Of a stretch of 64,000 nucleotides of DNA, positions 1 to 18,381 are shown in pieces. This DNA comes from Barnesiella viscericola DSM 18177. GTDB lineage: Bacteria > Bacteroidota > Bacteroidia > Bacteroidales > Barnesiellaceae. A model generated the notes under the pieces. The model made no database searches and was not told the DNA's origin. It saw nothing but the letters and a program-made list of their open reading frames with translations. Where the stretch lies: contig NZ_CP007034.1 in assembly GCF_000512915.1 (NCBI RefSeq), positions 310,001-374,000 of the forward strand, read 5' to 3'. Within the stretch, counting starts at the first letter, position 1. Each line of letters opens with the position of its first letter. Both the position numbers and the translations under genes were made by a program.

Positions 1-1765
1 CACTGCGCTCCGTATAACGCTTATCCCAGCTGTTATTTCGTATCTTGACATCTCTGCAACCATCTAACAGGAACGAAACCTTCTGCCAGGTATACGGACG
101 ATAATCAAAGGTCTTTATAATCTGATTATTCATGAAATACAGTCCTCGGGTAGATACGGCTCTGACAAGCGGTACATCAAACACATAAAAACGGTTATCT
201 ACAATTCGTATGTTTTTGTGATAAGGCTCCATATCTACCGTCGAGGGGATATGCGAAGGCGTAATGGTAATGACCGCCTCGCCCCATTGACTTCTGCTAC
301 CGTCTCGGTTACCAGAGGTCAAACAATTATCGAAAGTATTGTTGCGGATTGTGACATCGGTATTGGCTCCCGACTCATACCAGTAATCAAAATCGCCTTC
401 GATGAGGATTGCCGTACCGGCCGTACTAAAATAGTTGTCCTCTATGACAACCTTTTTAGGTGTAGTTACCAAAATACCACGAGCCCGATGCCTTTTTTGT
501 ATCTTGCAGTTACGAATCTCTACGGCAGCGCACCAGGTTTTGCACTCCATAAAGTCGCCATTACCGATAGCCTCGGGGACAGGCTTGTCAAATGACACGT
601 AATAGAACGAACCGTCCTCCGACAGTTTTTTGTCAGCAACAACCCCTACCTCACCTCGCTGGGCTTCGGGCTGCTTGATGAACCAATATTCATCACCTAT
701 CTGAACCGATCGGCCGGAACCTTTTCCTTCAACCGGGGCCATAACCGTATTCTGATTGACTCGACCAATTATTTTGACACTCGTGCCATGTACATTGATA
801 AAATCATCGGCTTGCCCCGTATGGGCACAATTCAAGACGCGAATGGTTCCGCCGCATTCTGAAAAATGAGAGGCATCGGCTACCGAACTGAAATATCGCC
901 CCTTGGCATCGTTGACAACCACCGAGGCATTATCCATCGTAATGTTCTCTGTGCGGTATCCCCAAAAGCCATTACTCAGGGAATGATACATTTTAATATC
1001 CTTCCACAGAATATTTCTGCTATTGGTCACACCTATACCCGTAGCAAAATAACGGACATGAAACAAAGAGACTATCGTTGTGTAAGGCTCTACCTGTATA
1101 GCTGGCTTCCCATGAAATCGCAGAACGCCTTCCGATATCTCCTCCACCGGCTTCTCAAATATATCGCCCAAGCTATTATAAGCAATCTCTTTGGTCTCCT
1201 TGTTGTATAAGGTTGAATACATGGTCATAACGGGTAATTTCCAATCCTCCCCTATGAAATACACTTTCCCATCGACGACTTCATAGGGATAGGCTTCTTT
1301 ATCGATCTTAATATCCAAATAGGAGTCGGTAGAGCCGATAATTTCTCCCTGAGATATAAAAGGTCTATCCCAGTCCACACTGAAATTCCTCATGGTCAGG
1401 CTGTCACAATCTTCAATATGAGCAATTTCCATTTTCCCATGGAAAACAAATTCCGAACCTCCTCCATCTAGTGTGAACTTATTCAACCCTTTCAAATGAA
1501 TACCCAAAGTTGCCGGTCGTTTCAGCACATCGTTTTCGTTACTTTTATCCGGATAGAAATCATATCGTCCCTTGGGGAACACCAACACAATATCATTCCG
1601 GCCCTGACAGGCCCGCAAGGCCTTCTTCAAAAATGGGCGCGTGTCCACCCCCGTATTGGGTTTCAGTCCAAAATCCTCAATTGATATTATTGTTGAAGCA
1701 CAGGTAAGACCGTTTACAACCAGCAAACACAGCCCTAATATATAATATCGCATACAACCTTTCAT
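1..1765 (-). CDS. GH110 alpha-1,3-galactosidase, secreted (3' end outside window)
   Basis: An open frame of 588 codons reads from an ATG at 1765 to the window edge without a stop; a second in-frame ATG at 1753 gives a tighter signal peptide (MRYYILGLCLLVV, then a Cys/Ala-Ser region). The translation looks like GH110: an N-terminal 'edge-of-helix' segment (ISIEDFGLKPNTGVDTRPFL), then many right-handed beta-helix turns (IRNNTF, IEDNYF, IRIVDNRF types) and the block ILIEGDFDYWYESGANTDV. An adjacent Asp pair (GQADDFINVHG, about residues 320-321) is of the kind implicated in catalysis in studied GH110 enzymes. GH110 enzymes cleave terminal alpha-1,3-linked galactose, in some cases from branched blood group B. 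It starts 9 bases after the stop of the upstream GH110-like fragment, so the two were one transcript. With the IS in place, its native promoter has probably been lost. Family fairly sure; linkage inferred. Confidence 0.82.
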   Translation of the reverse strand, partial: MKGCMRYYILGLCLLVVNGLTCASTIISIEDFGLKPNTGVDTRPFLKKALRACQGRNDIVLVFPKGRYDFYPDKSNENDVLKRPATLGIHLKGLNKFTLDGGGSEFVFHGKMEIAHIEDCDSLTMRNFSVDWDRPFISQGEIIGSTDSYLDIKIDKEAYPYEVVDGKVYFIGEDWKLPVMTMYSTLYNKETKEIAYNSLGDIFEKPVEEISEGVLRFHGKPAIQVEPYTTIVSLFHVRYFATGIGVTNSRNILWKDIKMYHSLSNGFWGYRTENITMDNASVVVNDAKGRYFSSVADASHFSECGGTIRVLNCAHTGQADDFINVHGTSVKIIGRVNQNTVMAPVEGKGSGRSVQIGDEYWFIKQPEAQRGEVGVVADKKLSEDGSFYYVSFDKPVPEAIGNGDFMECKTWCAAVEIRNCKIQKRHRARGILVTTPKKVVIEDNYFSTAGTAILIEGDFDYWYESGANTDVTIRNNTFDNCLTSGNRDGSRSQWGEAVITITPSHIPSTVDMEPYHKNIRIVDNRFYVFDVPLVRAVSTRGLYFMNNQIIKTFDYRPYTWQKVSFLLDGCRDVKIRNNSWDKRYTERS

Positions 1766-1774
1766 TTACATCTG

Positions 1775-2548
1775 TCAATCACAGTTCACAATCTCGGTTA
1801 CAGCCTCGGTTCGCTTATCGGATTCCAAGACATGATTTCCGACAAGTTCCCCACCTTTTACCGACTGGAAGCGTATCATGGGAGAGAGGCAATTCTCAAA
1901 TTCATTGTTCTTCACCGTAATGCCGCAATGCAACCCGGCGGGAGCAGGCTTTTGAGAGTATCCGCTACCCGATACATTAATGGCATACTTCCGTTTATTG
2001 CCAATGATTCTATTCCCTTCTATAAACACATTATCAGAGCACCCAGATTCCAGCCACCAGGTTTCTGGTGTAACCAGGATAGACGATATCCAGTTCCCTT
2101 CAAACACATTGTTCACGACCATACCGTTCGAAGCCTTGATCAATACGCCTCTGGATCGGTTGAATGAGAAATTGCAATCCTTCACCAGGAATCCGTTACC
2201 CATTCTGTCCCGGTTCCCCACAACTGCTCCCAACTCGAAATCTACCACTTTATCCACTACAATGTTCTGATACTGATTTTCGGGATTTAACAGTGCTGCC
2301 TTTATATTGTCATTGGAGGGTAAAGTCTTTATTCGTTCCAGTTCCTCTGCACTGATTTTTCCGCCTTCGCTTATCGATTTCACACACAGCAGGGGCAAAC
2401 GTTCTCCATCGTAAGTCACCACCTCGATCGTATCTCCTGCGGTCAAATCGCACTCTCCCAAAGGAACGATGCGAATACACCCTTCCGATGCGCCCAACGA
2501 AAAGAAATATCGGCCACCACTAGTGTCCGGAAAAAAATTCTCCGACAA
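1775..2548 (-). pseudogene. 5'-truncated GH110-like beta-helix glycosidase
   Basis: This is the C-terminal part of a second parallel beta-helix protein. Genuine coding starts at about 2523, directly at the insertion sequence; the frame runs into the IS and could only start at a TTG at 2548 inside the IS end, adding about eight foreign residues. Visible motifs include NRSRGVLIKASNGMVVNN and the block ETWWLESGCSDNVFIEGNRI, which match the neighbouring GH110 protein's RARGILVTTPKKVVIEDN and DYWYESGANTDVTIRNN. The region equivalent to the neighbour's Asp-Asp pair lies upstream of the break and is missing, as is any signal peptide, so it should be inactive. It was the first gene of a two-gene unit with the downstream GH110 gene. 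Alternative: another beta-helix glycosidase family close to GH110. Confidence 0.72.
2524..2543 (+). repeat. IS left terminal inverted repeat
   Basis: Starts TGTCCGGA followed by an A/T stretch and TTCTCC. It pairs with the right end at 3814-3833. A TTG at 2548, just inside the element, is the only start available to the truncated GH110-like frame. Confidence 0.75.
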
Positions 2549-2649
2549 TGTTTTAATTATTAAACATCAATAAGTTACAAACATCAGAAAATTTTTCGAT
2601 TAGAACATCAGTAACTTTGCGGTAGCCATCAAGAGGTTATCCGCAAGCC

Positions 2650-3819
2650 ATGAACAAAGGAAAAACAATCTTCGCTCAGATTATGTCTCTCATTAACGAA
2701 TACGAGTTCAAGAAATGTGTCGACCGCTACAAAGGTGACCGGCATGCTATCAAATTCAATTGTCGTGACCAGTTCATGGTGAAGAGTTTTGCACAGTTCA
2801 CTGACAGAGCTGGTTTGAGAGATATAGAGACTACACTTAACCTCTGCGGCGACCTCTATCGCTCCGGAATCAAGGCAATACCTCGATCCACGCTTGCGGA
2901 GGCCAACGAGAAGAAGGATTGGCGTATATATCAAGACTTTGCGATGACTTTGGTAAAGGAAGCCACGATGCTTTACAAGGATGAAAAGCTGCGAATTGGT
3001 CTTGAGGAGATGATATATGCGTTTGACAGCAGTACCATTGACCTGTGTCTTAAGTTGTGTCCATGGGCCGAGTTTCATCATGGTAAGGGTGCGTTCAAGA
3101 TACATACACTGATGGATCTGCGAGGCTCGATTCCCACATTTGTCATGCTCACGCCAGGCAAGGTTAACGATGCCAGGATGATGGACAAGATTCCTGTTGA
3201 AGCAGGTGCTTTCTACCTGATGGATAGGGGATATGTTGCCTTTGAAAAACTTTACAAGCATTTCCAGCAAAAGGGCGCCTACTTTGTTACACGCGCCAAG
3301 GACAATATGTCTTATGAGGTTATTGAGTCCAGACCTGTCAACAAAGACTCGGGCGTTCTTTCGGATGAGACTATCAGACTTGCTGGATATTACTCTACCA
3401 GAAAGTATCCCGACACATTGAGACTTGTTGTATATGAAGACATTGAGACTGGAAGAGTATATCGATTTCTGACCAACAACTTTGCGATTGACGATCCGCT
3501 GACTATTGCGGAACTCTACCGTGAACGCTGGCTGATAGAACTGTTCTTCAAATGGATCAAGCAGCATCTTCACATCAGGACTTTCTACGGCACTTCCAAG
3601 AACGCCGTGTACACGCAGATATGGATAGCCATTTGTGACTATCTGCTGCTCATCATTGCGAAGAAGCGATACGGGTTGGATCCAAGTCTTCATTCTATCT
3701 CTAACTCAATCGGACAAGTCCTCTTCCAGAGGGCGGATATCCGTGAAATTTATAATCAGCCGACAACTCCCGTTTGTGTTCCGGAGGCGGGTTCTGTCGA
3801 GCAACCTACTTTATGGTAA
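2650..3819 (+). CDS. IS4-family DDE transposase
   Basis: A 389-residue transposase that appears intact. The N-terminal ~75 residues resemble the DUF4372 domain common in Bacteroidetes IS4-like elements (KCVDRYKGDRHAIKFNCRDQ). The DDE catalytic triad is visible: D126 in YAFDSSTIDL, D192 in YLMDRGYV, and E297 in the IS4 signature YRERWLIELFFKWIKQ (Y-2-R-3-E-6-K). It should cut and paste the surrounding element through the inverted repeats at 2524 and 3833. Because no residue or frame is lost, the element may still be mobile, and other copies in the genome are likely. The start is the ATG at 2650, at a normal distance from the left inverted repeat. Confidence 0.93.
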   Translation: MNKGKTIFAQIMSLINEYEFKKCVDRYKGDRHAIKFNCRDQFMVKSFAQFTDRAGLRDIETTLNLCGDLYRSGIKAIPRSTLAEANEKKDWRIYQDFAMTLVKEATMLYKDEKLRIGLEEMIYAFDSSTIDLCLKLCPWAEFHHGKGAFKIHTLMDLRGSIPTFVMLTPGKVNDARMMDKIPVEAGAFYLMDRGYVAFEKLYKHFQQKGAYFVTRAKDNMSYEVIESRPVNKDSGVLSDETIRLAGYYSTRKYPDTLRLVVYEDIETGRVYRFLTNNFAIDDPLTIAELYRERWLIELFFKWIKQHLHIRTFYGTSKNAVYTQIWIAICDYLLLIIAKKRYGLDPSLHSISNSIGQVLFQRADIREIYNQPTTPVCVPEAGSVEQPTLW

Positions 3820-5978
3820 AATTTCTCCGGACAGCAGTGAATGTATATACCATTGTACAAGATGGTAATCAAACCGACATCTCGAAAATAACCACCGGCT
3901 TCCGAAAGATAGAAGTACGAGGGGCCGAATTGTATATCAATAACCGACGGTTAATGACCCAAGGGTACACCCCCCGTAGCCAAAATGAATGGCCGGCTAT
4001 TGGAGCGGCCTATCCCGACTGGCTACACGACTATTCCAATAAAATGCAGGTTGACGGCCACTCCCGCATCATTCGATGGGAGCATACCATGCCCTCACCG
4101 CAGGACATCAAATCCTGTGACAGAGTGGGCCTTCTGCAAATCATGCCCGGAGCCGACCGGGAAAATGACTCACAGGGTAGAGAATGGGAAATGCGATGTG
4201 AAATCATGCGCAATACAATCATTTATTGCCGAAACAACCCGAGTGTCATTTTGTGGGAAGCGGCAAACAACCTTATCAGCAAGGAACATTTAAGCAACAT
4301 GATTGCCCTACGGGATAAATGGGATTCCAGGGGTTACAAGCGCCCCATGGGCGGCCGTTCGGAAGGTCCCGAGTGGGTCTCCTGGATGTATGGCGTGCGC
4401 AAGGAAAAGTACAGACTCTCCATTGATACTGAATATCTGCGAGACGAATCGCCCAGACGCTGGTGGGATTCATACTCGGCTCCCTATTACCACAAAGAGG
4501 GTGAGTATATGCTGGTCGACAATGCCGGAGGGTGGAACAGAAACCAAGACAACATGTGTGTCATGCAGTCAATCGTTTATGAACAATACTACAAAGCAAG
4601 ACCCGGTACAGGAGAGGCTGTCTGCAACGGAGGCACACAAATATTCTTTGCCGATTCCGAGTCATTTACAAGAAGCATCGATTCGTTCAGGCGCAGCGGC
4701 TGCGTCGATGGCATGAGAGTACCCAAAGATACCTATTATGCCAACAAAACCATGTGGAGCAACACCCCCGAACTGTGGACCGAGAATGAACCGTCGGTTT
4801 TTATCCCCGGCCATTGGAATTATGATGCAGGGACAGTAAAACCGGTATATGTATTTGCCAGTCCAGGAATAGCCAGAGTCGACTTGTTGGTGAACGGTAT
4901 CCCGCAACAAGGTAAACAGGAAAACACATTCCTATACACATTCTCCAAGGTGTCATATACCCCGGGAAAGATTGAAGCCATAGGCTATGATAAAGACAAT
5001 CGTATAATGGCAACCTATCATCTTCAAACGGTTGGGGCCCCTGCCTCAGTCCGCATGAAACTCATATCACACCCCCAGGGATTGAGAGCCGATGGTTCAG
5101 ATGTCGTATTGATTGAGACCGAAATTGTAGACAAGCAAGGCAATCGGGCGCCATTGGCTCAAAATCTTGTCAAATACACCACCCAAGGCGACATCACCTG
5201 GCGAGGTGGATATTGGGAAGAAAATGTGAAAAAATATGCCAATCGGAAAGAATTGCCGGTTATCAATGGCATACATCGAGTTATACTCCGGTCGACCCTC
5301 CATACCGATACCGTAACGGTTATTGCCCAAGCCGAAGGACTTGAACCCGATACTCTTCAATTCATCGCCAACCCAATTGACGCAACCCGGGGATACTGTT
5401 CTGACCCCCCGGCCACTTTACCTGTCGCAATCGAACCTCAAAAAGAGATATACGGGAAAGATCTTCCCCGATATATCCTCCCTGCTGATGCCGAGCAAAC
5501 CAAGACTGACGGAACGGCACTCTCGGCGACCAACGAGGCCATCTTTAACCTGTCAACGGTCTTCCCACAAGGAGCCCGATTAAAGGCCAATGTACAAAAC
5601 GGTGACAGCATATACAGCGACCGTCCCTGGAAATTCAGTCAGTTACCCGAATATCTGAAAGGGGCACACTATCTGTTAGTAGCCAATGATGACGCTGGTA
5701 CTTCGGCCGGAGAAGGAATTGTTTTCAATATTGGGAAAGCAGGACGCGTTTACATCGCTTATGACGACAGGAATGTTCAATTCCCTGTGAAGAGCAGTCC
5801 AACTCCATTTAAAATCACCCATGACAAAATATATGTAAACGGGTATCCGCACACCATATACAGGAGCGAGCCCATGAATGGAGGCGAATTAACATACTTG
5901 GGAACCAACAGTTGGATTGAAAAGGCTCCTGAGGGTATAAACAACTATATCGTATTCATAACCAAAGAGACCAACTGA
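3774..5978 (+). CDS. 5'-truncated GH2-family glycoside hydrolase (beta-galactosidase-like)
   Basis: Only the sequence from about 3834 belongs to the original gene; the 5' end of the frame is IS sequence, with candidate starts at 3774 and 3813 inside the IS. The remaining ~715 residues begin at the end of the first Ig-like domain (TGFRKIEVRGAELYINNRR, MTQGYTPRSQNEWPA), followed by the TIM barrel (RNNPSVILWEAANN, where the Glu is a candidate acid/base; RRSGCVDGMRVPKDTYYANK) and C-terminal Ig-like domains (KPVYVFASPGIARVDLLVNG). The signal peptide and the N-terminal sugar-binding domain, roughly 250-300 residues, are missing, so export and activity are doubtful. I cannot place the usual Glu nucleophile with confidence; the segment LVDNAGGW sits where it would be expected. 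It is followed after 30 bases by GH97 in the same direction. Confidence 0.8.
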   Translation: MCSGGGFCRATYFMVKFLRTAVNVYTIVQDGNQTDISKITTGFRKIEVRGAELYINNRRLMTQGYTPRSQNEWPAIGAAYPDWLHDYSNKMQVDGHSRIIRWEHTMPSPQDIKSCDRVGLLQIMPGADRENDSQGREWEMRCEIMRNTIIYCRNNPSVILWEAANNLISKEHLSNMIALRDKWDSRGYKRPMGGRSEGPEWVSWMYGVRKEKYRLSIDTEYLRDESPRRWWDSYSAPYYHKEGEYMLVDNAGGWNRNQDNMCVMQSIVYEQYYKARPGTGEAVCNGGTQIFFADSESFTRSIDSFRRSGCVDGMRVPKDTYYANKTMWSNTPELWTENEPSVFIPGHWNYDAGTVKPVYVFASPGIARVDLLVNGIPQQGKQENTFLYTFSKVSYTPGKIEAIGYDKDNRIMATYHLQTVGAPASVRMKLISHPQGLRADGSDVVLIETEIVDKQGNRAPLAQNLVKYTTQGDITWRGGYWEENVKKYANRKELPVINGIHRVILRSTLHTDTVTVIAQAEGLEPDTLQFIANPIDATRGYCSDPPATLPVAIEPQKEIYGKDLPRYILPADAEQTKTDGTALSATNEAIFNLSTVFPQGARLKANVQNGDSIYSDRPWKFSQLPEYLKGAHYLLVANDDAGTSAGEGIVFNIGKAGRVYIAYDDRNVQFPVKSSPTPFKITHDKIYVNGYPHTIYRSEPMNGGELTYLGTNSWIEKAPEGINNYIVFITKETN
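3814..3833 (-). repeat. IS right terminal inverted repeat
   Basis: Read inward on the minus strand it begins TGTCCGGAGAAATTTT, matching the left end. An ATG at 3813, at the inner edge of this repeat, opens directly into the truncated GH2 frame, so the element could supply a start codon to the downstream gene. Confidence 0.75.
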
Positions 5979-6008
5979 CCCGATTAAAAATTTCGAGAAG
6001 CATAGTAT

Positions 6009-7892
6009 ATGAAAAACATCTTGTCAACTATTGCAACCCTGTGTGCTTATAGCATCTCTACTTTTGGAGCCGAGACCTTGATGAGTTCTCCCGATACATC
6101 TGTTCAAGCCAGCTTAATTCTTGACCAGGGTAATCTATCCTATTCCGTCTCCTTCTTAGGTAAAGAGACCATAGCTCCTTCCTGCTTGGGCGTGATTGTG
6201 GATAAAGATACCCTAGGCACCCACTGTACAAGCCGAGGTTATTCCCAAAAAGAGATTTACGAAAAATACCCTACCCGCGGATTCCACACAGAAGCCTTGA
6301 ATCATTGCAACGAATACACCTACGAACTTGAATCTAGGGGAATGAATTTTCGTCTACAATTCCGACTTTATAACGACGGTGTCGCTTTCAGATACGTAAT
6401 CCCAACCAAACAGAACTCAACGGCCCAGCACATCGTACATGCCGAACTGAGTTCATTTCATGTTCCCGGCGGTATTCCCGTATGGTTTTTTGAACGGCCC
6501 AATGATTGGAAACTGAAAACATATGCAGGGAAATGGGGAAAGACCATCTCCGACAGTCTGTACTGCATTTCTCCAACCGGCCCTGTGCAAGGCCCTATTC
6601 TGCTCTATGAACTGGGGAATGAACACTACATGGCTATTACGGAAGCCGCCCTCTACAATTACAGCGGTATGCGGTTAAAAGCCCGGAAAGATTGTTCCCT
6701 TCAAGTGAATTTTACCGAGGCGGAAGGCTTCGGACTTACCGGCACCATCACAACACCGTGGAGAGTCATCTTACTCACCCAAGGGCTTAACGCGTTGGTA
6801 AATACCGATATTCTAACCAATCTGAACCCGGCACCAGACCCTAGACTTTTCCCAAGTACAGACTGGATAAAGCCCGGCCGCAGTGTATGGAGCTGGTGGA
6901 GCGAGGCCAAAGGATATATGACTCCCAAGTATGAAAAGAAATTCATTGACATGGCAGCTGAATTGGGTTTTGAATATACCACTATCGACGAAGGCTGGGA
7001 AACCCAATGGACCGACAAGTGGAAGCAACTACGTGAAATATGTGAATATGCGGCTTCTAAAAAGGTGAAAGTCTTTGTTTGGAAGCACTCCGAAACGATA
7101 AATAACCCCGACAATGACTATGCAGTCATGCGCAATTTTATTGACAGTGTAGCCGCATGTGGAGCTGCCGGAGTGAAAATAGACTTCATGAACAGTGAAA
7201 GCAAACGTACAATTGATTTTGACACGAAAGCATTACAATTGTGTGCCGAGCGACAACTTTTGGTCAACTTTCATGGCTGTCAAAAACCCACCGGGGAATT
7301 CCGAACCTATCCCAATGAAATAACCCGGGAAGGTGTTCGCGGATTGGAGCTTAATAAACTGCTGCGACACATACCCGCGAATCATAATGTAGCGTTGATA
7401 TTTACAAGAGGTATTCTCAACAATAACGACTACACCCCTGTGGGATTCTCCAATCCGGGGAATACGACTTGGACACATCAACTGGCAACAGCCTATGCCT
7501 TTACGTCCCCACTAATTACCATAGCGGAACACCCTCACATGCTGCTGCACGACAAACGGCTGAAAACGATACTTCCTTTTTTGAAAGAGCTACCCTCTAC
7601 GTGGGACGAGACCCTTGTTTTACCCGGGAGCGATATTGACAAAACGGCCCTATTGGCCCGCCGGAAAGGGCAAACCTGGTATCTCATTGCATTGAACGGA
7701 AGCCAACCGTTACAATTGCCGGTAAAAACAGATTTCCTTCTTCCTGGAAAATGGAAGGCTACAATCATAGCTGATGGAGAGCAACCCGATAAAACAGTTC
7801 AACACATTCGGCATTTCGATTCGGGCATACCGCTGGATATAAATATGGCGGCCAATGGTGGGTTCGTGGCAAAAATCACACCCGCACCTTAA
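6009..7892 (+). CDS. GH97-family alpha-glycosidase, probably retaining alpha-galactosidase
   Basis: A 627-residue protein of normal GH97 length: signal peptide (ending near FGAETL), an N-terminal beta-sandwich to about residue 290, a TIM barrel (VWSWWSEAKGYMTPKYEKKF, EYTTIDEGWE, VKIDFMNSES) and a C-terminal beta domain. GH97 contains inverting alpha-glucosidases and retaining alpha-galactosidases. In the retaining group an Asp on the strand after the loop acts as nucleophile; here D392 in GVKIDFMN fits that place, favouring alpha-galactosidase. It would act in the periplasm on alpha-galactosides. It lies 30 bases after the truncated GH2 gene in the same direction, so it probably relied on the promoter lost upstream, or is now read from the IS. 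Substrate is inference; the family is clear. Confidence 0.88.
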   Translation: MKNILSTIATLCAYSISTFGAETLMSSPDTSVQASLILDQGNLSYSVSFLGKETIAPSCLGVIVDKDTLGTHCTSRGYSQKEIYEKYPTRGFHTEALNHCNEYTYELESRGMNFRLQFRLYNDGVAFRYVIPTKQNSTAQHIVHAELSSFHVPGGIPVWFFERPNDWKLKTYAGKWGKTISDSLYCISPTGPVQGPILLYELGNEHYMAITEAALYNYSGMRLKARKDCSLQVNFTEAEGFGLTGTITTPWRVILLTQGLNALVNTDILTNLNPAPDPRLFPSTDWIKPGRSVWSWWSEAKGYMTPKYEKKFIDMAAELGFEYTTIDEGWETQWTDKWKQLREICEYAASKKVKVFVWKHSETINNPDNDYAVMRNFIDSVAACGAAGVKIDFMNSESKRTIDFDTKALQLCAERQLLVNFHGCQKPTGEFRTYPNEITREGVRGLELNKLLRHIPANHNVALIFTRGILNNNDYTPVGFSNPGNTTWTHQLATAYAFTSPLITIAEHPHMLLHDKRLKTILPFLKELPSTWDETLVLPGSDIDKTALLARRKGQTWYLIALNGSQPLQLPVKTDFLLPGKWKATIIADGEQPDKTVQHIRHFDSGIPLDINMAANGGFVAKITPAP

Positions 7893-7963
7893 TGATGCCT
7901 CAAATACCGTTTAGCCCTATTGGGGTAAAAGTCTTCATCTGTTAAGTTTGTGACGTTTTTTGA

Positions 7964-7971
7964 TAAATTTG
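7964..7971 (+). promoter_or_regulatory. Bacteroidetes -7 promoter box
   Basis: TAAATTTG fits the TAnnTTTG consensus, 74 bases before the SGNH esterase ATG. A TTTG at 7947 is closer than the usual 19-21 base spacing. The 153-base gap suggests that esterase and GH95 have their own promoter apart from GH2-GH97. Confidence 0.45.
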
Positions 7972-8045
7972 AGCCTGTCGAATCACCTCTCAATTCATAA
8001 ATTTGTAAGTAGACAAATAACATACACTCATAAGAGATTCACGCC

Positions 8046-9320
8046 ATGAAAAAAAACGTATTGCTACTGTTGTTCTTTTCTTTCTTTCTTTTACAGCAAG
8101 CCTTCCCGGCTGAAAATATAGACATTCCCGGAGATGGCAAACTATCTGATGTTAATATTCTATATGTAGGCCGTTGGGACAGAAGCAATCCCAACCTCTA
8201 TCACAGTTATTGGACCGGTGCCTATCTAAGGGTCGACTTTACAGGTAGAAACATAGGGATACTGTTACAATCCGGAACCAACCTGGTCGTTTCCATCGAC
8301 GGAGAAGACTTGCGCTCGATAAATGCCACAAGTGGCCTAACCAGGCTGAATGAAGTAGAGCTGTCAGATGGAAGACATTCCCTATTGGTTGGAGCCGCCG
8401 GACAGAATGAAGAATTAACCTTCCTGGGATTAAGTTTGGACGAAGGAGCCGTAACCTATCGTGCTCAGGGCAAATTTCTGATTGAATACATCGGAGACTC
8501 TATTACCGCAACAGGGGGAGAAGACGACCAATCGGCAGCCAATTATGCCTGGTACACAGCCGAGGGATTAAATTGTGACCACACCCAAATAGCATTCAGT
8601 GGATTGGCTTTGACTACCGGATACGGTTGCTTGGAAGAAAAAATAGGTCTCGATTCGCTGTACTTCTGCTTGAAAAACTATAATCACATCGATGAACGGC
8701 CCATTCAACCATGGGATTTCAGTTATACCCCCAACATGATTGTAATCAATTTAGGGACAAATGACAAATGCGGATCAGCCACAGATGCAGTCATGAAATC
8801 GAGTATGTTCAACTTTTTGAGCCGATTGAGAAACACCTATCCCCAAACCACGTTGGTTGTCATGGAACCTTTCAACGGCTCTTATTCCGGCCCTATCGAA
8901 TCGGCCGTTGAAAAGTGTAAAACATTGGGAGACAACAATATCCAATTTGTAAAAACAGAAGGTTGGTTGACCGAAGAAGATTATAAAGACGGGACGCACC
9001 CCAATCTATCCGGTCGAGACAAAATTGTTCATAATCTCATGCCCTATTTGAAACCTCTATTGCCTTCCGACATAAAAAACGTAAAGAAGAACGACCTGAG
9101 TTTTTCTTATGACATAAACAGTCATAAAATAATCGTTCATTCATTGGACGAAATAAAAAACATCTTGCTCTACAACAGTATGGGCATGCTGGTGTATAAC
9201 AACAGCATCTCGTCCGACAGTTGTGAAATAGATTTGAGCGGATATATGAAAGGATATTATATATTGCGGGTACAGACATCTAATAACGAATTGGTTACCT
9301 ATAAAGTCTTGAAAGGATAA
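8046..9320 (+). CDS. Secreted SGNH/GDSL carbohydrate esterase (CE2-like) with T9SS-type C-terminal domain
   Basis: A 424-residue protein: signal peptide (1-~22, ends FPAEN), a beta-sandwich (~25-140), a SGNH hydrolase domain and a C-terminal tail. The catalytic blocks are visible: block I IGDSITA with nucleophile S152, block III NLGTNDK (about 237-241), and block V KDGTHPNLSG with D315 and H318. An N-terminal jelly roll joined to SGNH resembles family CE2, which deacetylates sugars. The last ~75 residues (ILLYNSMGMLVYNN, IDLSGYMKGYYILRVQ, TYKVLKG) match the pattern of type IX secretion sorting domains. GH95 follows 21 bases downstream, implying shared transcription. Removing acetyl groups would expose glycans to the neighbouring glycosidases. 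CE2 assignment is moderate; the SGNH fold is clear. Confidence 0.82.
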   Translation: MKKNVLLLLFFSFFLLQQAFPAENIDIPGDGKLSDVNILYVGRWDRSNPNLYHSYWTGAYLRVDFTGRNIGILLQSGTNLVVSIDGEDLRSINATSGLTRLNEVELSDGRHSLLVGAAGQNEELTFLGLSLDEGAVTYRAQGKFLIEYIGDSITATGGEDDQSAANYAWYTAEGLNCDHTQIAFSGLALTTGYGCLEEKIGLDSLYFCLKNYNHIDERPIQPWDFSYTPNMIVINLGTNDKCGSATDAVMKSSMFNFLSRLRNTYPQTTLVVMEPFNGSYSGPIESAVEKCKTLGDNNIQFVKTEGWLTEEDYKDGTHPNLSGRDKIVHNLMPYLKPLLPSDIKNVKKNDLSFSYDINSHKIIVHSLDEIKNILLYNSMGMLVYNNSISSDSCEIDLSGYMKGYYILRVQTSNNELVTYKVLKG

Positions 9321-9341
9321 ACATATCAGGATAACAGCACT

Positions 9342-11741
9342 ATGAAAAACAAGATCATTATACTCCTGTGTCTGCTTTTCTGCACGTCTTACGTATCAGC
9401 CGAAAATGTAGCCCTCTGGTTCGATTCACCGGCCAATCAATGGATGCAGTCTTTGCCTGTGGGGAACGGACGCCTGGGTGCAATGATTTTTGGTGGTGTT
9501 GACACAGAAAAATTGGCGCTGAATGAGTCAAGCATGTGGGCAGGCCAATATGCCCCCGAACAGGAAAAATCTTTCGGGAAAGCCAAACTTCAAGAACTGA
9601 GAGAACTGTTTTTCCAAGGAAAACTCGTCGAAGGGAATCAGATGTGCCACGAATATTTAACAAGCGACAATCACTCGTTTGGTACCCATCTCCCTGTTGG
9701 AGACCTGAATATACAATTCCTCTATCCCGTAGAGGGCTCTTACACGAACTACAAGCGGGTTTTGGATCTTGACAAGGGGCTGCACACGGTCTCATATACC
9801 TTAGGGAATGTGACCTATACCAGAGAATGCTTTGCCTCCAATCCCGATGATGTATTGGTTATGCATGTGACGGCAAATAAGAAAAGTTCCGTTTCGGTTG
9901 AAATTTCCTTAAACCTGCTCCGACAGCCATCGAAAGTGAGAACACTAGACAATCAATTGATATTCAATGGTCAGGCATTATCCAAAAACTCCAAGGGAGG
10001 TGTCTGGTTCGAAGGCAGAGTAACCGTGTCGGCAATAGGAGGCAACGTGCAAACGAAAGAGAACAAAATAGCGGTGAGCAATGCCGATGAATTAATTTTA
10101 AGAATTGATATTCGCACCGACTACAAAAACCCCGGCTACAAGGGCCTCTGCAAAAAGACCGTAAAAGCAGCCGAGAAAAAATCGTATGAGAAGATAAAGA
10201 AACAGCACATCGCCGATTTTTCGGCACTCTTCAACCGCGTAAGTTTGAGCCTGGGCGACAAGCGTGACGCTTATCAACTCCCCACATCGGTACGGTTGAA
10301 ACAATATAGAGAAAATCCGGCAGAGGATCCCGCTTTCGTAGCCTTGTTCTTTCAATACGCTCGTTACCTGTTAATCTCCTCTTCCCGAGAAAACTCGCCA
10401 TTGCCAATCGCTCTACAAGGGTTTTTCAATGACAATCTCGCCTGTAACATGGCTTGGACCAACGACTATCACTTGGACATCAACACCCAGCAAAATTACT
10501 GGCTATCCAATGTCGGAAATCTGTCGGAATGTAACGCTCCGCTATTCAAATATATTCAAGAGCTGTCGGTCTATGGACAAAGAACGGCACAAAACGTATA
10601 CGGCTGTAAGGGCTGGACCGCTCATACGGTAGCCAACATATGGGGATATACCTCTCCATCAAACGGCATAGGGTATGGACTGTTCCCGACCGCATCTTCC
10701 TGGCTGGCCAGCCATTTATGGACCGAATACGAATATACCCAAGACCGGAAATTCCTTAAAGATACGGCTTACCCTCTTTTAAAAGGGAATGCTGAATTTT
10801 TACTGGATTATATGGTGGAAGACCCCTCCGGGAAATATCTGTTGACCGGTCCCAGCATATCTCCTGAAAATTCATTTGTATACAACAACACGGCGCTATC
10901 CGCCTCCATGATGCCTACATGCGACAGAGTATTGGCGTATGAGATTCTAAACTCTACCCTGCAATCGGCCCGAATATTAAATGTAGACATTGATTTTCAG
11001 AATGATATAGAAAATGCGCTGCAAAAACTGCCCCCTATACGGTTGATGGCTAATGGCGGTATTCGTGAATGGTTAGAAGACTATCAAGAAGCAATCCCAA
11101 ATCACAGGCACACCACTCACCTGCTCTCTTTGTATCCATTCAACCAAATCAGTCTGGACTATACTCCTGAATTGGCGAAGGGAGCCTTGACTACGATTGA
11201 AAATCGGCTGTCTGCGCCCGATTGGGAAGATGTGGAATGGAGCAGAGCAAATATGATTTGCTACTATGCCCGACTGCACAAGAATCAAGAAGCCTATAAC
11301 AGCATCAATATTCTATTGGAGAAACTGATTCGCGACAACTTATTCTCGGTTTCACCCGTCGGGATAGCGGGAGCCGCGACCGACATATTTGCCATTGACG
11401 GGAATCAAGCTGCGGCAGCCGGTATTGCAGAGATGCTGATACAGAGTCAAAACGGCTATATCGAACTACTGCCATGCCTCCCCGAACAGTGGAACAAGGG
11501 GGCATGTGCGGGCCTCTGTATAAGAGGCGGCGGGCAAGTCGATTTTTCCTGGGACAGACAAGGTGTAAAAGCGGCAACTATACATGCAAAGAACGATTAT
11601 CCTTATCGTATTAAATTGCCCAAAGAGAATCGATACGAAATCCTCCTTAATCAAAAACGTATCAACATGGTTCCCGACAAACATGGACTGATAAGCATAT
11701 CCATGAATCAAGGAGATACCCTAAATCTGATTAGACTTTAA
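9342..11741 (+). CDS. GH95-family alpha-L-fucosidase (or alpha-L-galactosidase), secreted
   Basis: A 799-residue protein with a signal peptide (ends SYVSAEN), the GH95 N-terminal beta domain (LPVGNGRLGAMIFGGV, LNESSMWAG) and an (alpha/alpha)6 barrel. Expected catalytic landmarks: E509 in GPSISPENSF (general acid position), D686 in FAIDGNQAAAAGIAEML, and N381 in YHLDINTQQNYW. The family usually has Asn-x-Asn at the last site; here the first Asn is Asp (D379). GH95 enzymes are inverting and remove alpha-1,2-linked L-fucose from galactose, or L-galactose in some members. Removal of fucose would open a blood group-type chain to the beta-galactosidase of this locus. It is the last gene of the block. 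Family certain; exact sugar inferred. Confidence 0.9.
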   Translation: MKNKIIILLCLLFCTSYVSAENVALWFDSPANQWMQSLPVGNGRLGAMIFGGVDTEKLALNESSMWAGQYAPEQEKSFGKAKLQELRELFFQGKLVEGNQMCHEYLTSDNHSFGTHLPVGDLNIQFLYPVEGSYTNYKRVLDLDKGLHTVSYTLGNVTYTRECFASNPDDVLVMHVTANKKSSVSVEISLNLLRQPSKVRTLDNQLIFNGQALSKNSKGGVWFEGRVTVSAIGGNVQTKENKIAVSNADELILRIDIRTDYKNPGYKGLCKKTVKAAEKKSYEKIKKQHIADFSALFNRVSLSLGDKRDAYQLPTSVRLKQYRENPAEDPAFVALFFQYARYLLISSSRENSPLPIALQGFFNDNLACNMAWTNDYHLDINTQQNYWLSNVGNLSECNAPLFKYIQELSVYGQRTAQNVYGCKGWTAHTVANIWGYTSPSNGIGYGLFPTASSWLASHLWTEYEYTQDRKFLKDTAYPLLKGNAEFLLDYMVEDPSGKYLLTGPSISPENSFVYNNTALSASMMPTCDRVLAYEILNSTLQSARILNVDIDFQNDIENALQKLPPIRLMANGGIREWLEDYQEAIPNHRHTTHLLSLYPFNQISLDYTPELAKGALTTIENRLSAPDWEDVEWSRANMICYYARLHKNQEAYNSINILLEKLIRDNLFSVSPVGIAGAATDIFAIDGNQAAAAGIAEMLIQSQNGYIELLPCLPEQWNKGACAGLCIRGGGQVDFSWDRQGVKAATIHAKNDYPYRIKLPKENRYEILLNQKRINMVPDKHGLISISMNQGDTLNLIRL

Positions 11742-11787
11742 CTCGATAGATATTGGTGTATATTAATTGATAAAACTAGGAATAACC

Positions 11788-12030
11788 TCACATCGAATAA
11801 ATGAGGAATATCGTATAGACAATACCAACTATACCTACCCCCAGAGCACATGCCGACCCGATAATAAACGGTCGGTCATGTGTTCTGATACCGTATATCA
11901 ACGCAGCCAACGCACATGGGGCAATAGTGAGTATGGCAAAGGCTCTGAATATAATGAAACATATAAACAGGATTCCACCAAGCAAAATAAGGATTTTATT
12001 TCTACTCATCATCTCAACAGTTCGTTTCAT
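11788..12030 (-). CDS. Small two-helix membrane protein, unknown function
   Basis: An 80-residue frame with a basic N-terminus (MKRTVEMMSRNK) and two or three hydrophobic stretches (ILILLGGILFICFIIF; ILTIAPCALAALIYGI; GSACALGVGIVGIVYTIFLIY) separated by a charged turn (RTHDRP). The codon pattern and positive-inside arrangement look like a real inner-membrane protein, but I recognise no family. An alternative in-frame start (MMSRNK) lies 18 bases downstream. It is convergent with GH95 and divergent from the CPBP protease gene and sits at the boundary between the AT-rich glycosidase block and the GC-richer chromosome. No operon partner. Confidence 0.5.
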   Translation of the reverse strand: MKRTVEMMSRNKILILLGGILFICFIIFRAFAILTIAPCALAALIYGIRTHDRPFIIGSACALGVGIVGIVYTIFLIYSM

Positions 12031-12111
12031 ATAGATTAAATTTCCCGCACAGAGCTCATATGCAAAGAAGCAAAAAATAATTTTATGCCCCCAATCAAAA
12101 CGGCCTTTTTC

Positions 12112-12144
12112 TTTGGGCAGCCTTTTATTTTTGTACTATCTTTA
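12112..12144 (+). promoter_or_regulatory. Promoter of the CPBP protease gene
   Basis: A -33 TTTG (12112-12115) and a near-consensus -7 box TATCTTTA (12137-12144) are 21 bases apart. They end 19 bases before the ATG at 12164, which argues for that start over an earlier in-frame ATG at 12113. Confidence 0.45.
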
Positions 12145-12163
12145 CCCTCGAAAAAGAAATGTC

Positions 12164-13054
12164 ATGAAAATTACCGAATATATCCGCCATTCGTCGGTGG
12201 GTGTGAAACTCATCGTGCTACTGATATTGATTCTGTGCGGCGTGTTTGTCATCGCCATTCCCATGCTTTTTGTGCAGGGTGAGTATGCGCTACTGACAGG
12301 CATGTACCTGCAAAATATCGGTATGTTCATCTTGCCGGCCTGGTTCGCAGCCATGCTGTTTTGGGGCAACGCCGGACGGGGTCTGCGTCTGAACAAGGCC
12401 CCTCGCCTGCTCGAACTGCTGTGTATCGTGATACTCTATTTCGTGGCTACCCCCATGTTCAACCGCTTGGTAGAGTGGAACGAGTCCATCAACTTGCCCG
12501 AAGCATTCGCCTCTATCGAAGCCTGGATGCGTCAACAGGAGGAGGCAGCAGCTACGGTAACCGAGCAGTTGATGCAAATACACTCACTACCCCATTTCCT
12601 GGCTGTCGTCCTGGGTATCGGTGTTCTCACCGGCATGGGCGAGGAGATGGTGTTCCGGGGCATACTCCAACAGGTGGTTCAGGGTGAAAGCCGTCGAGCT
12701 CATGTAGCCGTATGGACCTGTGCCTTCCTGTTCAGTGCCATACACTTGCAATTCTACGGATTCTTCCCCCGACTGCTGCTGGGGGCCTTTTTCGGTTATC
12801 TGCTGGTGTGGAGCGGCAACCTGTGGCTCCCCATCTTCGGGCATCTGTTCAACAACAGCATGGTGGCCTGCATCTCCTATTTTACCGGGAATGACTCGCA
12901 CAACACGTTGGAGGCATTGGGCACGACACAATCCTCCACGGCTTGGCTGGCGTGGGTAAGCCTTGTAGCAACCGTCCTCCTGCTCTATCTATTCTATAAG
13001 AAGGTATTTACAGCTTCCGCCAAAATCAAAGGAATTTCTTCCGATGGAAGATAA
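12164..13054 (+). CDS. CPBP-family intramembrane glutamic-type protease (CAAX protease-like)
   Basis: A 296-residue inner-membrane protein with about seven hydrophobic segments. The Abi/CPBP (PF02517) motifs are all present: the EExxxR motif in [12 protein letters not shown], a His in [14 protein letters not shown], and a His with two Asn in [12 protein letters not shown]. Members of this family cleave peptides in the membrane; roles range from prenyl-protein processing to bacteriocin immunity and are not known for this one. The start at 12164 (MKITEYIRH) is preferred because a promoter-like -7 box lies just upstream. It converges with lptB, and the two coding sequences overlap by 29 bases at their 3' ends. 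Confidence 0.88.
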
Positions 13055-14863: not shown

Positions 14864-15654
14864 TGATAACGGTAAACAACGTATATAAGCTGTTTGACGG
14901 AAAAGAGATTCTGCACGATGTTTCCGCCAAATTCTATTCCGGCAAAACCAATCTGATTATCGGGCAAAGCGGCTCGGGTAAAACCGTATTGATGAAATGT
15001 ATCGTGGGGCTGTTACGCCCCGACAAGGGACAAATCTGTTACGACGGCCGCGACGTCATGGCCATGACACAAGCCCAGACAAAGGCTCTGCGCAACGAAA
15101 TCGGTATGCTGTTCCAAGGGTCGGCCCTGTTCGACTCGGAGACAGTCCTGGGGAACGTCATGTTCCCCCTGCGCATGTTCACCCATGACAGCTACGCAGC
15201 CTGCAAGAAACGGGCCGAATTCTGCCTGGAACGAGTAAATCTGAAAGGGGTTAACGACCTCTATCCTTCGGAAATTAGTGGAGGTATGCAGAAACGGGTT
15301 GCCATCGCGAGAGCCATCGCCCTGAATCCCAAATACCTGTTTTGCGACGAACCCAACTCGGGACTTGACCCCAAAACTTCAATTCTTATCGACGAATTGT
15401 TGAGCGACATCACCCGCGAGTACAACATGACGACCATCATCAACACTCACGACATGAACTCGGTAATCGGCATCGGCGAGAATATTGTCTTTATCAACAA
15501 GGGCTACCGGGAATGGGTAGGTAACAAGAACAAGATTTTCACCTCGTCGAACGAGGCTTTGAACGATTTCGTCTTTGCCACCCGCCTCTTCAAGGAGGTC
15601 AAAGGCTACATGATTGAAGAGTACCGCAAGCAAGAGGCTACGGAAGAAAAATAA
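14863..15654 (+). CDS. mlaF: MlaF-family ABC transporter ATPase
   Basis: A 263-residue ATPase partner of MlaE. Visible: Walker A IGQSGSGKTVLMKC, Q-loop LFQGSALFDSETVLGNVMFP (typical of MlaF/TTG2A), signature EISGGMQKRVAIARA, Walker B YLFCDEPNSGLDP and switch His in INTHDMNS. It uses ATP hydrolysis to move phospholipids between the membranes. It overlaps mlaE by one base. A C-terminal ~40 residues extends beyond the core (FATRLFKEVKGYMIEEYRKQ). It is followed by a stem-loop likely to end the operon. With lptB on the other side of the promoter region, this forms an envelope-lipid transport cluster. Confidence 0.92.
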   Translation: MITVNNVYKLFDGKEILHDVSAKFYSGKTNLIIGQSGSGKTVLMKCIVGLLRPDKGQICYDGRDVMAMTQAQTKALRNEIGMLFQGSALFDSETVLGNVMFPLRMFTHDSYAACKKRAEFCLERVNLKGVNDLYPSEISGGMQKRVAIARAIALNPKYLFCDEPNSGLDPKTSILIDELLSDITREYNMTTIINTHDMNSVIGIGENIVFINKGYREWVGNKNKIFTSSNEALNDFVFATRLFKEVKGYMIEEYRKQEATEEK

Positions 15655-15680
15655 GACGACCGGCAAAAACGATTAGCGAA

Positions 15681-15720
15681 AAGTGTTGGAGCCCGACTTT
15701 CATCGAGCTCCAACACTTTA
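15681..15720 (+). terminator. Stem-loop after mlaF
   Basis: A 12-bp perfect stem, AAGTGTTGGAGC (15681-15692) with GCTCCAACACTT (15706-15717), loop of 13 bases, followed by a weak T-rich stretch (TAAATCTT). It sits 27 bases after the mlaF stop. Confidence 0.65.
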
Positions 15721-15817
15721 AATCTTACGGCTGCGATAAACCTCGATGCCGCTCCTGAACAGTTGTAGAGGTCAGCCCGATTGACAAGCATGCAATTTCC
15801 CTTTGTATAACCCTATA

Positions 15818-16555
15818 TTAGCAGTAAATCAGGCAATAGAGTGCTGCGGCAATGAATCCACCGATAATAGGACCTGCCACAGGCACCCAAGAGTATCCCC
15901 AGTCGTTGGTACCTTTCCCCTTAATCGGCAAAATGGCGTGAGCGATGCGCGGAGCCAGATCCCGAGCCGGGTTGATGGCATACCCCGTCGTTCCACCCAG
16001 CGACATACCCAATGCAATAATCAGCATGGCCACCGGGAATGCCCCCAAAGCGCCCATACCTACCTCGAAAGTATTTCCGTCGATAGAGAGGGCGAGAATG
16101 ACAAATACCAGCATAAAAGTCCCTACGATTTCGCTGAACAAATTGCGTCCATAGTTGCGGATAGCAGGAGCCGTACAGAATGTAGCCAGCTTGGCCGCAG
16201 GGTCATCGGTAGCGTCATAGTGGTCCTTGTAATAAAGATAAACCAATACTGCCCCCGTAAAACCACCGAGCATCTGTGCCACGATGTAAGGAACGACCAG
16301 GCTCCAACTGAATGTCCCGGCAGCAGCCAGACCCAGAGTAACAGCCGGATTGAGATGAGCGCCCGAATAGGGCCCCGAGATGAAGACCCCGAGCATGACG
16401 GCAAGCCCCCAGGCTATTGTCACGACAACCCAACCGCCGTTCTCACCTTTCGACTTTTTCAGGATATTCGAGGCGACCACCCCATCGCCAAACAATACCA
16501 GTATGGCCGTCCCGATAAACTCGAAGAGACTTTTGGTAAATACGACATCATCCAT
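15818..16555 (-). CDS. glpF: Glycerol uptake facilitator (MIP/aquaglyceroporin)
   Basis: A 245-residue six-helix channel of the major intrinsic protein family. The first pore loop carries SGAHLNPAVTLG and the second GYAINPARDLAPR; the Asp after NPAR is the aquaglyceroporin hallmark separating glycerol channels from water channels. It brings glycerol across the inner membrane, to be trapped as glycerol-3-phosphate by GlpK. It is the second gene of a minus-strand operon, 33 bases after glpK. The upstream glpK carries a premature stop, so translation of the upstream frame may end early and lower glpF expression by polarity; glpF itself looks intact. Confidence 0.93.
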   Translation of the reverse strand: MDDVVFTKSLFEFIGTAILVLFGDGVVASNILKKSKGENGGWVVVTIAWGLAVMLGVFISGPYSGAHLNPAVTLGLAAAGTFSWSLVVPYIVAQMLGGFTGAVLVYLYYKDHYDATDDPAAKLATFCTAPAIRNYGRNLFSEIVGTFMLVFVILALSIDGNTFEVGMGALGAFPVAMLIIALGMSLGGTTGYAINPARDLAPRIAHAILPIKGKGTNDWGYSWVPVAGPIIGGFIAAALYCLIYC

Positions 16556-16588
16556 GGCTTTTAGATTTCCGGTTAATGAATTCTTATC

Positions 16589-18097
<1,509 letters not shown>

Positions 18098-18187
18098 TTA
18101 GGTTAACTCTTATTGGTCAAACTGGAAAGTCGCCACAAAAAGACGGCTCTCCATCACGGTGTTTTCACAGCTTAGTTGCTTCGTTTC

Positions 18188-18219
18188 CAAAAATATAAAA
18201 CATTTTCGCAAAGGACAAA
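18188..18219 (-). promoter_or_regulatory. Promoter of the glpK-glpF operon
   Basis: On the minus strand a -33 TTTG (18219-18216) and a -7 box TATTTTTG (18195-18188) are 20 bases apart, an exact fit to the Bacteroidetes consensus. It lies about 100 bases before the glpK ATG. Confidence 0.65.
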
Positions 18220-18291
18220 ATAAAATGTAAATCTTTCTGTCACATCATTCCTATTCCCTGCAAGATAATACCCGCCAATCTCCAAAAACAC

Positions 18292-18329
18292 GCCCATAAT
18301 GCGGGTATAATTACCTCTGCATTATGGGC
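18292..18329 (-). terminator. Long hairpin, probable terminator of the LRR gene
   Basis: An 11-bp perfect stem GCCCATAATGC / GCATTATGGGC with a 16-base loop that itself contains GGTA-TAAT-TACC. On the minus strand it is followed by GTGTTTTTGG, and it sits 53 bases past the stop of the LRR gene. It is the most notable item in the 296-base interval 18086-18381 apart from the glpK promoter. Confidence 0.55.
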
Positions 18330-18381
18330 CCGATTTAAACATGAAGAGAATGTTTCAGACAATATGCCTGCTCTTTACACA

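Follow-up and report, generated by a model that had tools for sequence, protein, structure and literature searches.

An IS4-family element as the probable scar of a deletion within a variable island of carbohydrate-degrading genes in Barnesiella viscericola

The genome of Barnesiella viscericola DSM 18177 is assembled as one contig of 3.08 Mb with a completeness of 99.87%, and the stretch analysed here, hereafter the window, comprises 64,000 nucleotides of it (bases 310001-374000). At the left end of the window lies a variable island of ~12.4 kb, of which positions 1-12058 fall inside the window; as a whole it starts ~190-320 bp before the window and ends at ~12,059-12,254, depending on the relative with which it is compared. 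The order of its genes is a GH110-like gene (gene A), the remnant of another GH110-like gene (gene B), an insertion sequence (IS), the remnant of a GH2 gene, and genes for GH97, CE2 and GH95 enzymes, with a short open reading frame (ORF) of 80-90 amino acids near the right edge. In its clustering of GH110-like, GH2, GH97, CE2 and GH95 genes the island resembles a polysaccharide utilisation locus of the Bacteroidales, but unlike such a locus it has neither SusC/SusD nor a regulator among its seven main ORFs. A literature search found no paper on insertion sequences and a polysaccharide utilization locus in Barnesiella.

On the left side of the island both genes are encoded on the minus strand. 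Gene A (1-1765, with its 3' end ~100 bp outside the window) is the second gene of this pair and an open frame of 621 amino acids in all (L025:6900-8765). Pfam recovers the GLAA-B beta-barrel domain I and a Beta_helix domain in the 588 residues inside the window that were scanned, and the protein matches the frame at L040:3381-5267 at 65% over 587 columns. Its start lies 9 bp beyond the stop codon of gene B, of which a 3' remnant of 246 amino acids with a Pfam Beta_helix domain is kept at 1775-2517. From the first complete residue at the IS this remnant aligns with positions 311-558 of an intact 565-residue protein in the genome G173 (44%, 109/248), and ~310 amino acids are missing in comparison with this one relative. 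The GH110-like label derives from the same G173 protein, which weakly matches the solved alpha-1,3-galactosidase B (E 0.0023). At an E-value of 1e-20, relatives of gene B were detected in none of the eight other genomes of the genus and in one of the 392 other genomes of the order-level sample.

The right side is encoded on the plus strand and begins with the 3' remnant of the GH2 gene (3840-5978), which retains 712 amino acids with the Pfam domains Glyco_hydro2_C5 and DUF4982; the solved GH2 beta-galactosidase 6hpd matches its residues 13-707. A 734-amino-acid ORF listed from 3774 was rejected as the GH2 gene, as its start falls inside the transposase gene and the true remnant starts at 3840. 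Downstream follow three open genes identified by Pfam: GH97 (6009-7892), a CE2/GDSL esterase (8046-9320) and GH95 (9342-11741), the last enzyme gene of the island. A search of the named genome collection, which covers close relatives only and may omit the own genome, returned a single GH2 locus, in the genome G007. From its very first base the GH2 remnant is identical to the G007 copy at 81% of DNA positions and 86% of protein positions, and the G007 frame continues for 185-191 residues (191 if counted from stop to stop) upstream of the junction, with no IS there. Among 28 GH2 loci compared, nine yielded no ORF, most likely as a result of reading a single strand, and were dropped, and the 18 that remained besides G007, all more distant, extend 263-389 residues upstream of the junction by a stop-to-stop count that is slightly high. 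The alignment of gene B to its G173 relative from residue 311 onwards, taken together with these longer GH2 relatives, indicates that both genes are truncated at the IS.

The GH2 gene of G007 itself seems to be short at its 5' end, though at a different point, given its 191 residues against the 263-389 of the 18 others. Ahead of its frame (L033:550-705) lies AT-rich DNA, with 150 bp of 23% GC and stops in all three frames, and the 156 bp upstream of the frame matched only themselves. This 5' reading comes from a MAG with a coverage of 6.3, at no more than 705 bp from the end of a contig. The GH2 gene of the island may, like that of G007, have been broken already when the IS-side loss occurred. 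Between the remnant and the G007 gene dN is 0.076 and dS 1.48, a ratio of 0.05 in which dS is near saturation; the corresponding ratios are 0.10 for GH97 and 0.05 for CE2. The GH2 ratio implies that most of the divergence arose under selection, so that either the break is recent relative to the divergence or the remnant is still kept. Two further observations concern the enzymes themselves. At 4254-4271 both the remnant and the G007 protein read EAANN where 10 of the 18 relatives read EXGNE, the first glutamate of this site being common to all 20 aligned GH2 sequences. Also, G007 has an alpha-galactosidase gene (Melibiase, GH27-type; L032:10567-11784) between GH2 and GH97, which is without counterpart in the window.

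Between the two remnants lies a complete IS4-family element of 1,322 bp (2518-3839, plus strand), the only copy within the window, with the terminal sequences CACTAGTGTCCGGA at 2518 and TCCGGACAGCAGTG at 3839. Its transposase (2650-3819) is an open frame of 389 amino acids that contains the Pfam domains DDE_Tnp_1 and DUF4372 and scores 254.6 bits against the NCBIfam model of the IS4 family, NF033592 (cut-off 115). By eye, its translation also has the Y-(2)-R-(3)-E-(6)-K signature (YRERWLIELFFKWIK), in the form defined for the IS4 family in PMC2266710. Table 1 of that work characterizes the IS4Sa subgroup by ends of the form CA------T, a length of 1150-1750 bp and target duplications of 8-10 bp. 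The element resembles this subgroup in its 5'-CA ends with T at position 9 (CACTAGTGT and CACTGCTGT), its length, its YREK signature and the 9-bp repeats at other copies in the genome, these repeats being confined to copies of a 1,514-bp form. It differs from the subgroup as tabulated there in that this amplified form bears a second, diverged left end.

In total the chromosome holds eight copies, namely two solo copies (that in the window and another at 2731418), which differ from each other at five positions, and six of the 1,514-bp form. In the shared part the latter show 17-18 differences from the solo copies and none among themselves. The 1,514-bp form is a composite, in which 191 bp of a left end of 73% identity precede a complete inner IS; the outer left end includes the start of a transposase and, by eye, what resembles a promoter box. 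All six composites (L020:4476-5989, and those in L019, L021, L022, L023 and L024) are identical in both parts. At five of them the 9-bp repeats are found next to the outer left end and the inner right end, which implies that the inner left end is bypassed and the whole composite is mobilized in one piece. No parent of the outer end was found in the same genome, with the solo form as query, or in the loci fetched. Across the order-level sample of 393 genomes, own genome included and with at most two candidates scored in each, the matches listed contain no full 1,514-bp form outside the own genome and end fragments of it in four other genomes. In the region L018:3719-7753 the second solo copy has as neighbours a ThsB/TIR-like gene and an AbiEii gene, the latter accompanied by a weak match to AbiEi. 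The 85 bp to the right of this copy are found again, at 95% identity, past the AbiE-like genes. In the genome G005 a stretch of 178 bp with both IS ends (L121:1464-1641), which has no flanking repeat by eye, could be a miniature derivative.

At none of the lengths 4-12 bp do the flanks of the copy in the window show a perfect repeat. Perfect 9-bp target duplications are present at five of the eight copies, all of the 1,514-bp form; the sixth copy of that form has none, and neither have the two solo copies, that in the window included. The missing duplication at the window copy is unusual relative to the amplified form, the comparison set having no solo copy with a duplication. In PMC11708052, recombination between IS copies and IS-adjacent deletions are named as frequent reasons for absent duplications. 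An inversion or exchange between copies was considered and rejected, as pairwise comparison of the flanks of all eight over 9 bp, in both senses, gave a best cross match of 6/9. These observations bear out the initial annotation in three respects: an IS4 element does lie between the 3' parts of a minus-strand GH110-like gene and a plus-strand GH2 gene, each gene does lose its 5' portion exactly at the IS end, and no target duplication is visible.

The setting of the island was compared across the genus. The 6.7 kb to its left are conserved in all nine genomes, own included, and in the eight others the next long aligned block starts at 12,059-12,254, depending on the relative; the island is absent from this slot in all eight. 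Unaligned gaps between the conserved flanks measure 72, 149, 157, 204, 246, 256, 907 and 2,538 bp, and the contents of the slot vary, as with ORFs of 336 and 445 amino acids in G005 and one of 176 amino acids in G001. Since the island's flanks lie close together in 8/8 relatives, the DNA on either side of the IS is part of a single island. This favours a local deletion over a chimeric assembly. The GH2-GH97-CE2 module of G007 is on contig C13 and its slot on another contig, C35, and so the island may be a patchwork. A second variable stretch, unaligned or partly aligned in the other genomes of the genus, occurs at 15650-18380.

The missing 5' parts were not recovered elsewhere. When the own genome was searched with the G007 probe for the GH2 5' part (~185 residues), the best match, at 31% and an E-value of 2e-4, fell inside another large open frame; the G173 probe for gene B, which as a 44% relative could miss a diverged fragment, matched gene A alone, and this weakly (24%, E 0.0025). 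Translocation of the lost parts was accordingly rejected. Along the direction of transcription, the G173 locus comprises a TonB-plug (SusC-type) gene, SusD, a PKD/BT_3987-like lipoprotein gene, which separates the SusC/SusD pair from the intact gene B, then gene B itself, a further GH110-like gene, two GH43 genes and gene A. A second SusD lies further upstream, and the Pfam hits there are TonB plug and SusD_RagB. Within 20 kb around the G173 gene B, no GH2, GH97, CE2 or GH95 gene is among the ORFs listed (by eye, with Pfam for nine of them). An intact divergent pair of GH110-like and GH2 genes, as envisaged by the initial annotation, is seen neither in the genus nor in the 393 genomes of the order-level sample (own included), and genes A and B have no match above 60 bits in the 20 GH2 neighbourhoods that were fetched from the 27 GH2 places outside the own genome in that sample. 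SusC was detected in one and SusD in two of these 20 neighbourhoods with one diverged pair as query, for which reason their absence from the rest means little.

Taken together, we regard the IS as the scar of a deletion inside one variable island of carbohydrate-degrading genes, to which we give a probability of about four in five. That both gene starts were removed by an IS-mediated deletion is the best-supported history: their 5' parts were not found elsewhere, the target duplication is absent and the flanks share one slot. Loss, rather than inversion or exchange, is indicated by the failure to find the 5' parts elsewhere along with the lack of a paired flank at the other copies. An IS4 element of the solo type would have inserted in the island. 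The stretch from mid-gene B to mid-GH2 would then have been lost, together with the matching target repeats, either by a deletion next to the IS or by recombination with another copy that had the same orientation. On this reading genes B and GH2 would formerly have been adjacent and divergent. To this extent the deletion history of the initial annotation stands; its shared promoter region presupposes an adjacency and divergence that none of the relatives displays. Judged against the relatives, the two 5' parts alone would set a minimum loss of ~1.7-2.1 kb, and the loss would come to ~8 kb if SusC, SusD and the lipoprotein gene lay between, as they do before gene B in G173. By this analogy with one relative, and given that the island's main ORFs include no SusC or SusD, the further suggestion that a SusC/D pair was lost from the island is plausible.

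Three other accounts of the junction were weighed. In one of these, recombination at IS copies joined two cluster fragments that had been acquired separately; B and GH2 would then never have lain side by side, and no continuous stretch between them would have been deleted. The location of the G007 module on a contig other than that of its slot is in keeping with such a fusion, as is the G173 neighbourhood with its SusC/D, GH110-like and GH43 genes and none of the right-hand enzymes among the ORFs listed. However, both halves sit in a single slot, the conserved flanks of which lie near each other in all eight relatives, and uptake of a circle at an IS should, as we reason, produce another IS copy at the far edge, whereas the window has but one; we consider this fusion distinctly unlikely. 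Eight copies of the IS in one genome could also have led to a chimeric join at a repeated sequence during assembly. Against this stand the single contig, the common syntenic slot of both flanks, the lack of any other IS copy with a complementary flank and the failure to find the missing gene parts in the assembly, and we judge such an artefact extremely improbable.

The last account is a variant counted within the deletion reading and not beside it, in which the IS entered at a double-strand break and made no target duplication, deletion and insertion being one event. This has been proposed for IS5 and IS481 in PMC11708052 and would yield the same structure; nothing specific speaks against it, and the sequence cannot separate it from a two-step adjacent deletion; we hold it to be unlikely. 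The preferred reading, an IS-mediated deletion, has parallels in the IS-associated deletions of the Lenski lines described in PMC11708052, where likewise the IS is retained, flanking DNA is lost and no target duplication is seen. It differs from them in that the element here is of the IS4 family, IS4Sa-like and in another host.

As to the genes left behind, the B and GH2 remnants are both open frames but probably non-functional, since the N-terminal domains, an export signal and a start of their own are missing from both. The frames of gene A and of the GH97-CE2-GH95 genes are likewise open, with their native upstream region gone under the deletion reading. The promoters of Bacteroidetes contain a motif of the TAnnTTTG type, and a TAnnTTTG box (TAACTTTG) is present on the plus strand at 2612, upstream of the transposase; with ~1.5 such boxes expected by chance per 1.8 kb, from the count in the window, this box alone means little. 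No leftward-pointing box occurs within 2301-4100. An ATG at 3813, in frame with the GH2 remnant, overlaps the transposase stop (3817-3819). Expression of the remaining genes from the IS, as the initial annotation suggested, is possible. A stronger version, in which the scar would be a working hybrid operon where the putative transposase promoter at 2612 and translational coupling at the 3813 ATG drive the GH2 remnant, GH97, CE2 and GH95, appears highly doubtful; if true, these four genes would be freed from the lost control of the cluster.

So read, the event is an ordinary IS-mediated deletion, a known kind of genome decay, and it does not change the understanding of IS elements or of glycan-use clusters. 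It does serve as a warning that the annotations of gene B and GH2 drawn from this sequence probably describe broken genes. A single natural locus would show an IS stripping a glycan-use cluster of its start while the downstream enzyme genes are left open.
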